This document shows, in pieces, positions 28,161-36,103 of a DNA stretch of 64,000 nt. Location: the NCBI RefSeq assembly GCF_000069785.1, contig NC_010530.1, positions 614,001 through 678,000 of the forward strand, in the 5' to 3' direction. The stretch comes from Cupriavidus taiwanensis LMG 19424 (lineage in GTDB: Bacteria; Pseudomonadota; Gammaproteobacteria; Burkholderiales; Burkholderiaceae). Made by a program: the position numbers and the translations under genes. The notes under the pieces were generated by a model that saw nothing but the letters and a program-made list of their open reading frames with translations, did not search any database and was not told where the DNA came from. Numbering within the stretch: position 1 is the first letter of the stretch; every line of letters starts with the position of its first letter.

Positions 28161-28176
28161 TCGTCGCATCGGACGA
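28161..28176 (-). promoter_or_regulatory. Regulon inverted repeat, site A1
   Basis: TCGTCGCATCGGACGA, a variant of the palindrome found at 28241, 34505 and 36088. It lies 79 bases upstream of the acyl-CoA dehydrogenase start (28081), matching the 78 bases between site A2 and the synthetase start. The two sites begin exactly 80 bases apart. Confidence 0.6.
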
Positions 28177-28240
28177 AGCTGGCGCGCGGGCCGGAAACCC
28201 CGTCTTTTGCGGCGCTGCGGCAAAGCCGGGCTGTACCGCT

Positions 28241-28256
28241 TCGTCGCTTCCGACGA
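28241..28256 (+). promoter_or_regulatory. Regulon inverted repeat, site A2
   Basis: TCGTCGCTTCCGACGA: 6-bp arms TCGTCG/CGACGA with spacer CTTC. Identical at all 16 positions to sites at 34505-34520 and 36088-36103. It serves the acyl-CoA synthetase promoter, 78 bases upstream of ATG 28335. The spacing suggests an activator bound just upstream of the -35 region. Confidence 0.7.
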
Positions 28257-28334
28257 TGGTCGAACCGGCCAGGGTTCCGAGAATGCGGAAGCGGCATCCG
28301 CCCACCCACCATCCCCGTCGAGGAGCTCCACGCC

Positions 28335-29882
28335 ATGCATCCGCACATCCACGCGCAGCGCACGCCGGACAAGGCCGCCGTCATCATGGGCGGCAGCGGC
28401 GCCGTCGTCACCTACCGCGAGCTGGACCAGCGCTCGAACCAGGTCGCCCACCTGTTCCGCAAGCTGGGCCTGAAGCCCGGCGACCGCGTGGCTTTCATGG
28501 TGGAAAACCATGCGCGGATGTTCGAGCTGTGCTGGGGCGCCCAACGCAGCGGCATCGTCTATATCTGCCTGAGCACGCGCCTGAACGCGGCCGATGCCGC
28601 GTATATCGTCAACGACAGCGGCGCCCGCGTGCTGGTCACCACGCACGCGCAGGCCGAGATTGCCGCGGCGCTGGCCGGGCAGACGCCGGCGCTGCAGGCC
28701 CGCCTGATGCTGGACGGCACGGTGCCCGGCTATGAGACCTATGAAAACGCGCTGGCCGACTGTCCTGCCACGCGCATCGACGACGAGGTGACCGGCGGCG
28801 ACATGCTGTATTCATCGGGGACCACGGGCCGGCCCAAAGGCGTGTACGCGCCGCCGTCGAGTCCCGACATCGACGCGCCGACGACGCTGACCGCGCTGTG
28901 CCAGCGGCTCTACGGCTTCGATGCCGACACGCGCTACCTGTCGCCCGCGCCGCTGTACCACGCCGCGCCGCTGCGCTACACCATGTCGGTACAGGCGCTG
29001 GGCGGCACCGCGGTGGTGATGGAGCATTTCGACGCCGAGCAGTTCCTGCGGCTGGTGCAGCAACACCGCATCACGCATACGCAACTGGTGCCGACCATGT
29101 TCTCGCGCATGCTCAAGCTGCCCGAGGCGCAGCGGCAGACCTATGACGTGTCGTCGCTGCGCGTGGCGATCCACGCGGCCGCGCCGTGCCCGGTGCAGGT
29201 AAAGGAAGCGATGATCGCGTGGTGGGGGCCGGTGATCTGGGAGTATTACGCCGGCACCGAAGGCAACGGCGTGACCGTGGTGGACACGCCGCAATGGCTG
29301 GAGCGCAAGGGCACGGTCGGGCGGGCCATGGTGGGCAAGCTGCGCATCTGCGGGCCGGACGGCGCGCTGCTGCCGCCGGGCGAGCCAGGCACGATTTACT
29401 TTGCCGAGGGCCGCCCGTTCTCGTACCACAACGACGCGGCCAAGACCGCGGAGACGCGCCATCCGCAGCATCCGGACTGGAGCACCATCGGCGATGTCGG
29501 TTACGTGGACGCGGACGGGTATCTGTACCTGACCGACCGCAAGGCCAACATGATCATCTCCGGCGGCGTCAACATCTACCCGCAGGAAGCCGAGAACCTG
29601 CTGATGACGCATCCGAAGGTAATGGATGTCGCCGTGATCGGCGTGCCCAACGAGGATTTCGGCGAAGAGGTCAAGGCCGTGGTGCAGCCCGCCGACATGG
29701 GCCAGGCGGGGCCGGAACTGGCCGCGGAGCTGATTGCCTTCTGCCGCGCCAACCTGTCGGCCATCAAGTGCCCGCGCTCGGTGGACTTCGAGTCCGAGTT
29801 GCCGCGGCTGCCCACCGGCAAGCTGCTCAAGCGGCTGCTGCGCGACCGCTACTGGGCCGGTCACGCCAGCAAGCTGGTGTGA
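28335..29882 (+). CDS. Acyl-CoA synthetase (AMP-forming)
   Basis: ANL-family acyl-CoA ligase of 515 residues that activates a carboxylic acid to its CoA ester using ATP. The P-loop-like motif YSSGTTGRPKGV is near residues 156-167. YYAGTEG, YLYLTDRKANMIISGG and the catalytic Lys region PTGKLLKR near the C-terminus are intact. AGGAG at 28321-28325 supports ATG 28335. It is divergent from the acyl-CoA dehydrogenase pair and carries its own copy of the regulon palindrome, so it is the likely entry step of this beta-oxidation island. Confidence 0.93.
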   Translation: MHPHIHAQRTPDKAAVIMGGSGAVVTYRELDQRSNQVAHLFRKLGLKPGDRVAFMVENHARMFELCWGAQRSGIVYICLSTRLNAADAAYIVNDSGARVLVTTHAQAEIAAALAGQTPALQARLMLDGTVPGYETYENALADCPATRIDDEVTGGDMLYSSGTTGRPKGVYAPPSSPDIDAPTTLTALCQRLYGFDADTRYLSPAPLYHAAPLRYTMSVQALGGTAVVMEHFDAEQFLRLVQQHRITHTQLVPTMFSRMLKLPEAQRQTYDVSSLRVAIHAAAPCPVQVKEAMIAWWGPVIWEYYAGTEGNGVTVVDTPQWLERKGTVGRAMVGKLRICGPDGALLPPGEPGTIYFAEGRPFSYHNDAAKTAETRHPQHPDWSTIGDVGYVDADGYLYLTDRKANMIISGGVNIYPQEAENLLMTHPKVMDVAVIGVPNEDFGEEVKAVVQPADMGQAGPELAAELIAFCRANLSAIKCPRSVDFESELPRLPTGKLLKRLLRDRYWAGHASKLV

Positions 29883-30052
29883 GGCATCGGCAAACGGTGC
29901 GCGGCCGCTGCCCGCGTTTTCGCCAGGGCAGCGGTTTACGTCATAATGCCTCGCTACACCACAGCCACGGCCACCCGCCTGCATCCCGCAGTGCCGGGGG
30001 CGCATGGCGCGCCCGGCAAGGGCCGCGATGTGCGGGAGACCACTGACAGCCA

Positions 30053-34520: not shown

Positions 34521-34629
34521 GGCTGGGACCGCGCGCGGCGCCGTAGACTGATGCCGATCAGGCGGCGGGGCCGGCACATCACGACAGTGCGCCGTTGCTT
34601 CTGCCGGCGCAGACCGCAAAAGGACCACC

Positions 34630-35601
34630 ATGAAGACACGCATCACCGAACTGCTTGGCATCCGCTACCCCATCATCCAGGGCGGCATGCAATGGGTTGG
34701 CTACGCCGAGATGGCCTCCGCCGTTTCCAACGCGGGCGGCCTTGGCATCCTGACGGCGCTGACCCAACCCACGCCCGAAGACCTGGCCAACGAGATCCGC
34801 CGCTGCCGCGAGATGACCGACAAGCCGTTCGGCGTGAACCTGACCCTGCTGCCGTCGATCAACCCGCCGCCGTACGCGCGCTATCTCGACGTCATCATCG
34901 AGAGCGGCGTCAAGGTGCTGGAGACTGCCGGCAACAATCCCAAGGAACATATCGCGCGAGCCAAGGCGGCGGGCATCAAGGTGATCCACAAGTGCGTGGC
35001 GGTCCGCCATGCATTGTCGGCCGAGCGGCTGGGCGTGGACGCAGTCTCGATCGACGGCTTCGAGTGCGCTGGCCATCCCGGCGAGGACGATGTGCCGGGC
35101 ATGGTGCTGATTCCGCAGGCGGTGCGCAAGCTCTCGGTCCCGGTGATCGCCTCGGGCGGCATCGCCGACGGGCGCGGCATGGCGGCGGCGCTGGTGCTTG
35201 GCGCCGAGGGCGTCAACATGGGCACGCGCTTCTGCGCCACGCGCGAGGCGCCGATCCACGACAACGTCAAGCAGGCGCTGGTGCAGGCCAGCGAGCGCGA
35301 CACCAACCTGATCTTCCGCACCCTGCACAACACCGCGCGCGTGCTCAAGAACGCCGTGTCGGACGAGGTGGTGAGCATCGAACGCCGTCCGGGCGGCGCG
35401 CAGTTCGAGGACGTCAAGCACCTGGTCGCCGGTGTGCGCGGCAAGGCCGCGCTGAAGGCGGGCGAGACCGACGGCGGCATCATCAGCGCCGGCCAGTGCG
35501 TGGGCCTGATCGACGACGTGCCCAGCTGCGAAGAACTGATCGCGCGCATGGTGGCCGATTGCCGCGAGCACCTCAGCGTGGCCTCGCGCTACTTTGCCTG
35601 A
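34630..35601 (+). CDS. Nitronate monooxygenase-family FMN protein
   Basis: A TIM-barrel flavoprotein of 323 residues. IQGGMQWVG and NAGGLGILT mark the N-terminus, [13 protein letters not shown] the active-site His loop, and [19 protein letters not shown] the FMN phosphate site. The family includes true nitronate monooxygenases, but in beta-oxidation settings relatives such as IpdC act on CoA esters. Because the neighbours are CoA enzymes and the promoter carries the regulon site, a reductase or dehydrogenase role on an acyl-CoA is possible. The thioesterase gene follows after 4 bases. Confidence 0.9.
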
Positions 35602-35605
35602 CGCC

Positions 35606-36073
35606 ATGGCCGAGGCGGAAATCGAGGCGGCGCTGACCCGCGCCATCGCCGCGCCGGCCGAAGCCGGCACCGACGTGCCGGAGGGCTTTATCCCGCTGCG
35701 CCGGATGAGCGGCTACATGGCCGGCTTCGGCCAGCTCTATCTGCACGCGGCCCGCCGCACGCTGGCGGTGCGCATCGACGAGAGCCACCTGAACAACCTG
35801 GGCATTCCACACGGCGGCATGCTGGCGACGCTGGCCGATACCGCCATCGGCATGATGATGTCGCTGGAAACCGGCCGCGCCAAAAGCGCGGTGACCGTCA
35901 ACCTGAGCCTCGACTATCTCGATTCGGCGCGCCTGGGAGACTGGGTCGAAGCCCGCGTGGAGTTCGACAAGCTCGGCTCGCGGCTGCGCTACGGCACCTG
36001 CCGGCTGTTCAGCGGCGAGCGCTGCCTGCTGCGTGCCACGGCGATCTTCGCGGTGCTGGCGCCGCGCGCCTGA
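35606..36073 (+). CDS. PaaI-family hotdog thioesterase
   Basis: Hotdog-fold thioesterase of 155 residues from ATG 35606. The signature N63-N-x-G-x2-H69-G-G with Asp78 downstream fits the PaaI subgroup, which hydrolyses acyl-CoA esters and can rescue CoA from dead-end intermediates. The gene begins 4 bases after the preceding stop without its own ribosome site, which indicates coupled translation. A TTG at 35594 is an alternative but overlaps the previous gene. Confidence 0.9.
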   Translation: MAEAEIEAALTRAIAAPAEAGTDVPEGFIPLRRMSGYMAGFGQLYLHAARRTLAVRIDESHLNNLGIPHGGMLATLADTAIGMMMSLETGRAKSAVTVNLSLDYLDSARLGDWVEARVEFDKLGSRLRYGTCRLFSGERCLLRATAIFAVLAPRA

Positions 36074-36087
36074 GCGGTGCGGCAACT

Positions 36088-36103
36088 TCGTCGCTTCCGA
36101 CGA
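36088..36103 (+). promoter_or_regulatory. Regulon inverted repeat, site C
   Basis: TCGTCGCTTCCGACGA, identical to A2 and B, 114 bases upstream of the thiolase start and 14 bases after the thioesterase stop. A CAATAG -10-like hexamer lies some 25 bases downstream. The site implies that the thiolase has its own promoter. Confidence 0.7.

Follow-up and report, generated by a model that had tools for sequence, protein, structure and literature searches.

The island and its boxes

A 64,000-nucleotide stretch of the Cupriavidus taiwanensis LMG 19424 genome (NCBI RefSeq assembly GCF_000069785.1, contig NC_010530.1, positions 614,001 to 678,000; the whole stretch is called the window here, and coordinates are those of the window unless a contig is named) holds an island of acyl-CoA degradation genes whose promoter regions carry a repeated palindromic box, very probably read by a LAL regulator that the island itself encodes. 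On the minus strand lie two acyl-CoA dehydrogenases, ACAD1 (25655..26890) and ACAD2 (26930..28081), whose nearest NCBIfam models, the PimC large subunit and the PimD small subunit respectively, are both matched below cut-off. Diverging from them on the plus strand are an AMP-binding acyl-CoA synthetase (the ligase, 28335..29882; nearest NCBIfam model FadD4, below cut-off) and the LAL regulator of 918 amino acids (30053..32809), which is the proposed binder and activator. A nitroreductase-family protein (32819..33508, by domain match) and an enoyl-CoA hydratase (ECH, 33522..34397, above the cut-off of NF006109) follow on the minus strand, and the plus strand then carries an NMO/FabK-like flavoprotein (34630..35601, by domain match), a hotdog thioesterase of the 4HBT family (35606..36073, first in-frame start 35594) and a thiolase (36218..37393, above the cut-off of NF005077). 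The reading of 32819-33508 as a regulator gene was rejected, as it encodes the nitroreductase-family protein.

The exact palindrome TCGTCG-N4-CGACGA occurs three times in the window, each copy being identical on the plus strand (TCGTCGCTTCCGACGA), and a fourth site fits the pattern with one mismatch (TCGTCGCATCGGACGA at 28161-28176). Box 1, this variant (28161..28176, minus strand, reading TCGTCCGATGCGACGA leftward), precedes the predicted ACAD2-ACAD1 promoter and was assigned from the pattern match together with a -10 at fixed distance; the exact matches are box 2 (28241..28256, plus) at the ligase-LAL promoter, box 3 (34505..34520, assigned to neither strand), which is apparently common to the divergent ECH and NMO promoters and has a footprint besides, and box 4 (36088..36103, plus) at the thiolase promoter. 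A pattern search thus agrees on all four sites named in a preliminary description made by reading the letters alone. That description had seen no others in the window, and there is no further exact copy, the only additional one-mismatch matches lying at 3330 and 23849, away from the island promoters. Under a first-order Markov model 0.017 exact palindromes would be expected in the window, at most one being seen in 60 simulations, and the wider core TCGTC-N6-GACGA falls at the four named boxes and nowhere else in the window, against 0.12 expected. Likewise, the site of its own described for each start of the divergent pair 28081/28335, at 78-79 bases, was measured at 79 bases between start 28081 and box 1 and 78 between the end of box 2 and start 28335, and the centre of box 3 does lie midway, about 115 bases from start 34397 and about 117 from start 34630.

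Promoter architecture

At six predicted promoters the box stands 22-23 nucleotides (nt) from a -10-like hexamer. These are the ACAD2-ACAD1 promoter (GAAGAT, 28132..28137, minus, 23 nt from box 1), the ligase-LAL promoter (GAGAAT, 28279..28284, plus, 22 nt from box 2), the ECH-nitroreductase promoter (TAGTGT, 34477..34482, minus, 22 nt from box 3), the NMO-thioesterase promoter (TAGACT, 34544..34549, plus, 23 nt from box 3), the thiolase promoter (AACAAT, 36126..36131, plus, 22 nt from box 4) and, outside the window, an SDR-ligase promoter at C3:607226, where the hexamer GAATCT is weak, with A and T in place and two of six consensus bases. To qualify as a -10, a hexamer needed A in second place, T in sixth place and three or more matches to TATAAT. 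Among 66 non-redundant site orientations (all gene-facing box orientations in the window, in L190 and in the island loci L191-L229, less near-duplicates), 40 have such a hexamer 22-24 positions past the box end; shuffling each downstream stretch gave a mean of 3.0 and a maximum of 11, and none of 2000 shuffles reached 40. The offsets peak at 23 (18 cases) and 24 (20 cases), and no other in the range 1 to 40 has more than three.

With the -10 at -12 to -7, the box is predicted to span about -50 to -35 and to be centred at -42.5 or -43.5. Given that the hexamers stand at a fixed 22-23 nt, the dyad would be centred near -42.5, as is expected of a class II promoter under a LuxR-type activator; this position is reckoned from predicted -10-like hexamers. 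Further, in 22 aligned Cupriavidus ECH-NMO regions (24 were tried), box 3 and both -10s stand out as a footprint from poorly conserved sequence; the NMO-side -10 belonged to the selection rule of this alignment and the ECH-side -10 did not. Box 3 appears to serve two divergent promoters, with TAGTGT toward ECH and TAGACT toward NMO. Most Cupriavidus copies keep both the CTTC spacer of box 3 and the orientation of that spacer, despite the symmetric half-sites and the apparent two-way action.

Occurrence in the genome

The genome as scanned comprises 6,476,522 bases in three contigs, of which the window is C3:614001-678000, and the reversed motif served as control. The exact palindrome with any spacer is found at 13 places against 2 for the control; the three island copies are intergenic and the remaining 10 of 10 lie within predicted genes. 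The exact 16-mer occurs at the three window places only (control, 0). Many copies in unrelated places, which the preliminary description had named as a refutation, were looked for; the other ten exact palindromes are in predicted coding sequence. A one-mismatch copy of the 16-mer at C3:607226, 6.8 kb left of the window, is a fifth box: it precedes an SDR/CoA-ligase operon, with 131 bases from box to SDR start. The core joined to a -10-like hexamer at the fixed distance gives nine matches in the genome and none in the control; six are at the four island boxes and the C3:607226 box, and three lie within predicted genes. The extent given for the regulon accordingly stands for the island promoters and has to be widened beyond the window to the SDR/CoA-ligase operon. 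By their predicted functions, the island genes with the SDR and this second ligase are a beta-oxidation-type set.

Conservation among relatives

Of the 398 family genomes, 51 contain the exact 16-mer, spread over 5 of 25 genera, and one contains its reverse. Members of the genus with several copies, typically three, have them mostly in the same orientation. In Cupriavidus islands the boxes recur before the same genes, with two between acyl-CoA dehydrogenase 2 and the ligase, one between ECH and NMO and one before the thiolase; Cupriavidus pinatubonensis HN-2, for example, has four boxes in the same order, each differing from the 16-mer at 0 to 2 positions. In several distant species a box also precedes an SDR and CoA-ligase operon near the island, the counterpart of which is here the operon at C3:607226, and in several outgroups boxes lie in the LAL promoter region. 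Island maps were compared without L211-L213 and parts of L210 and L214, the sites of these loci being used in later tests. Gene calls in relatives came from a simple open-reading-frame picker based on GC3, with uncertain starts, and "intergenic" is therefore approximate for them.

The inner bases of the box differ between paralogues, as in L241, where TCGTCAAAACTGACGA occurs twice, so that the common part is a five-base half-site. The motif as originally defined exists as a palindrome; the general box is nonetheless TCGTC-N6-GACGA, the CTTC centre being mostly oriented in Cupriavidus. As a separate observation, four motif-bearing LAL islands (L195, L197, L287 and L303) share ABC-transporter-like genes that look by eye like branched-chain amino acid or amide uptake, and in the part compared none of these clusters with window genes at 24000-44000.

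The LAL protein and its company

The 918-residue protein has the composition of the LAL family, with about 900 amino acids, an N-terminal NTP-binding domain, a MalT-like tetratricopeptide-repeat (TPR) region and a C-terminal LuxR-type helix-turn-helix (HTH). Residues 22-444 match the solved N-domain of MalT, 8bob (E=5.6e-38), and the Walker motifs APAGFGKTT (Walker A) and TLFLDDF can be read by eye in the translation; the TPR region matches PF17874 at 476-815 (E=6.1e-31) and the HTH matches GerE at 857-912 (E=3.4e-17), with SETTVRTHLRNI as the recognition helix. It is not MalT itself by the NCBIfam equivalog, which it matches at 330 bits against a cut-off of 537. The gene begins 170 bases past the ligase, behind box 2, and a CATAAT-like stretch lies upstream of it; our guess is that this stretch could give a low constitutive supply of LAL.

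In the window's genus, all 35 genomes that contain the exact 16-mer also encode the LAL, at 70% identity or more in 33 of them, at 47% in G271 and in fragmented form in G385. None of the 24 genomes lacking the 16-mer has a LAL of at least 600 bits, though several of them carry paralogues of 40-43%. Within one genus such an association is expected from linkage alone. In the family outside the genus, the exact 16-mer is found in 7 of the 13 genomes whose LAL reaches 600 bits and in 9 of 326 others (p=1.8e-7). In a sample of the order, the composite of core and -10 occurs in 6 of 9 LAL genomes against 16 of 390 others, or, with the window's genus removed, in 4 of 7 against 16 of 390 (p=1.5e-4). 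Among loci picked for their NMO gene (77 of 80 were used; the three under 6 kb that were left out have no core match), an intergenic box with -10 is present in 3 of the 4 that have a LAL and in 1 of the 73 that lack one (p=2.2e-4), and in 2 of 3 with a LAL when the same-genus locus L050 is removed (p=0.003); the fourth locus with a LAL, L056 of Variovorax, has a one-mismatch copy. LAL is also the one protein family shared by all 12 of the motif loci that were compared, of which seven were chosen in the knowledge that they had both LAL and motif, L204 for its LAL, and L287, L289 and L303 for the motif alone. Beyond Burkholderiales the test is weak, the class-wide LAL search having hits in 2 of 369 genomes, that of the window among them.

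Recognition helix and box

Box presence follows the recognition helix of the LAL. Among 36 LAL-paralogue loci, in three sets of 5, 20 and 11, the helix carries [VI]RTH in 16 and is of another kind in 20 (K class, RAH, RSH and one unread). An intergenic perfect TCGTC-N6-GACGA is present at 15 of the 16 [VI]RTH loci, 14 of them with a -10 by rule, against 1 of the 20 others (L240; p=4.4e-8, uncorrected for relatedness). Without L332-L334, which were already known to hold the motif, the counts are 12 of 13 and 1 of 20, and the fresh part of the 11-locus set gives 4 of 4 [VI]RTH loci against 0 of 4 with other helices. On balance we favour the view, with appreciable reservations, that a [VI]RTH LAL lineage, with many Burkholderiales paralogues beside different acyl-CoA degradation islands, reads a common TCGTC-N6-GACGA at -42.5, and that the box is lost where the helix is slightly altered (R to K, or VRTH to VRSH). 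LAL paralogues with a K helix (SELTVKSHLR or TIKTHLR; L230-L235, L238, L248 and others) adjoin other acyl-CoA degradation genes. Their loci are without the TCGTC box, L240 being the sole exception; a separate box is to be expected for these paralogues, and none was identified in the loci examined.

Weighing the explanations

The proposal that one regulator acts on the island through the box, as the preliminary description held, is well supported, because the box is conserved, its spacing from the promoter is fixed and it co-occurs with one regulator. Several observations weigh against that regulator being the LAL. In nine genomes of the family, all outside the genus, the 16-mer is present and no LAL reaches 600 bits; of the nine places concerned, one (L311) is intergenic with a -10, and the genome-wide search behind these figures scored two LAL candidates per genome. 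One order-sample genome counted as a match (G532) has its motif in a predicted gene and not near the LAL, probably by coincidence, and without it the count outside the genus is 3 of 7. A strict composite pattern at order level, examined at 20 loci that stand for 21 of 25 places outside the genus, falls within a predicted gene and without LAL in 12; of the eight intergenic matches, five are without LAL in the stretch examined and three are with it. L246, in which a VRTH LAL lies close to the start of a contig, lacks the box; L240 carries one beside an IKTH LAL; and the box in L328 is without a -10 by rule. The -10s here are weak (GAGAAT, AACAAT, GAAGAT, and GAATCT at C3:607226), and the asymmetric, conserved CTTC centre is not accounted for by a purely symmetric dimer. 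Many loci come from related species, with near-copies among them (L243/L244 and L195/L196/L197), so that the p-values make the evidence look stronger than it is; further, LAL and boxes are physically linked, so that part of their association is hitch-hiking. Against the finding of the boxes itself stands the count of the bare core over the whole genome, which shows no enrichment, with 38 places as compared with 46 for its reversed form. Being no commoner than this control, the core is not predictive alone, and it was rejected as a genome-wide predictor of the regulon. This last result, with the abundance of TCG/CGA-rich words in coding sequence here, is what a chance or dispersed repeat without function would also give, an explanation left with next to no probability by the conservation of orthologous positions, by the excess of the 16-mer over its reverse in the family (51 genomes against 1 of 398) and by the fixed promoter spacing.

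The position of the box, at about -50 to -35 and a fixed distance from the -10, would also suit a -35-type element of an alternative sigma factor rather than an operator; the dyad of two five-base half-sites with a free centre in relatives, its apparent two-way use at one place, -10s that resemble the ordinary TATAAT type and the tracking of a LAL make this hardly credible. The preliminary description had offered two candidate regulators, the LAL, which has gained support, and the TetR-family protein encoded at 38377-39153, which has not. TetR proteins bind palindromes of roughly this size, the gene adjoins the island and tblastn matches to it occur in 15 of 24 Cupriavidus stretches; these points speak for repression of the island by this protein through the palindromes. 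No relative is found by tblastn (E up to 1e-3) in any of 11 outgroup motif loci, however, a repressor would need no fixed distance to the -10, and the box tracks the helix class of the LAL; that the TetR protein is the regulator is very unlikely, and it was rejected on its absence from those loci and the fixed -10 spacing. It could instead be supposed that a regulator encoded elsewhere, neither LAL nor TetR, binds the boxes, with the LAL a fellow member of the regulon, as some genomes have the 16-mer without a close LAL and the LAL itself stands behind a box. Against this, box presence follows LAL helix class across paralogues, and LAL and box co-occur in samples picked for neither, or scanned for each separately, and we consider such a regulator improbable.

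We therefore hold it very probable, from the pattern of sequence evidence, that the palindromes are operator boxes of the LAL at 30053-32809 and that this protein is an activator of the island and SDR-ligase promoters. In the mechanism proposed, an inducer, which is probably a pathway acid or CoA thioester, would together with ATP switch on the LAL, which would then oligomerise, a dimer binding the inverted repeat through the LuxR-type HTH. The box, centred at about -42.5/-43.5, would replace the -35 element and recruit RNA polymerase by class II activation, and one symmetric box (34505) could fire two divergent promoters. As the LAL gene lies downstream of the ligase and behind box 2, activation would probably raise LAL as well, giving positive feedback like that reported for AlkS.

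Other features of the window

Left of the island lie two neighbouring IclR-family regulators (20656-21561 and 22596-23564). A complete rRNA operon (16S, two tRNAs, 23S, 5S) occupies 44631-49793 on the plus strand of the window, which belongs to C3, the second-largest contig.

Significance and comparison with known systems

LAL regulators are numerous, and to our knowledge a DNA box or regulon has been established for few of them. Here a comparison over samples of some 400 genomes ties a box and a promoter architecture to a class of regulator. It may thereby become possible to assign orphan beta-oxidation islands of Burkholderiales to a regulator and, via its inducer, to a substrate, and candidate inducible promoters are gained, including a two-way promoter with a single box. 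If the association of helix and box is true, the simple recognition code it implies would make hundreds of orphan catabolic regulons predictable from sequence.

A catabolic regulon of LAL type is already a known kind; this box, this regulon and the helix rule are apparently undescribed. The exact 16-mer and palindrome strings had no match in the literature searched, and no description of this regulon was found in that on LAL, AlkS and beta-oxidation regulons in Cupriavidus or Burkholderiales (subscription papers and RegPrecise lay outside the scope). The systems that follow are compared by the partial descriptions available of each. FadP, a predicted regulator of fatty-acid degradation in Burkholderiales (PMC12543098, PMC5343134), likewise controls beta-oxidation operons in the same order of bacteria, but is a TetR repressor. 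H16_B1342, a LuxR-family protein of Cupriavidus necator H16, activates a hexanoate cluster (PMC12285253). As in the role proposed here for the LAL, a LuxR-family protein exerts positive control over clustered CoA-ligase and acyl-CoA dehydrogenase genes, and does so in the same genus; its cluster, of dehydrogenase, SDR, ligase and transporter, differs from the island here. MalT, the LAL prototype, has the same domain order of NTPase, TPR and C-terminal LuxR HTH. It is reported to bind decanucleotides in direct repeat (PMC6099782), whereas the conserved boxes here are inverted repeats; no search was aimed at MalT boxes as such. AlkS, a LAL/MalT-type activator in Pseudomonas and Alcanivorax, is described as acting on alkane genes through an inverted repeat upstream of the promoter, reported as 20-bp, with positive feedback on its own gene (PMC8784404, PMC12740625). 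Its targets are alkane hydroxylase genes and those proposed here are beta-oxidation genes. No hydroxylase was found by Pfam in a search confined to ten island proteins. The system proposed for C. taiwanensis is nevertheless like AlkS, as far as the latter is known by description, in that a LAL-type activator would govern a catabolic cluster through an inverted-repeat operator, with feedback that is here inferred.

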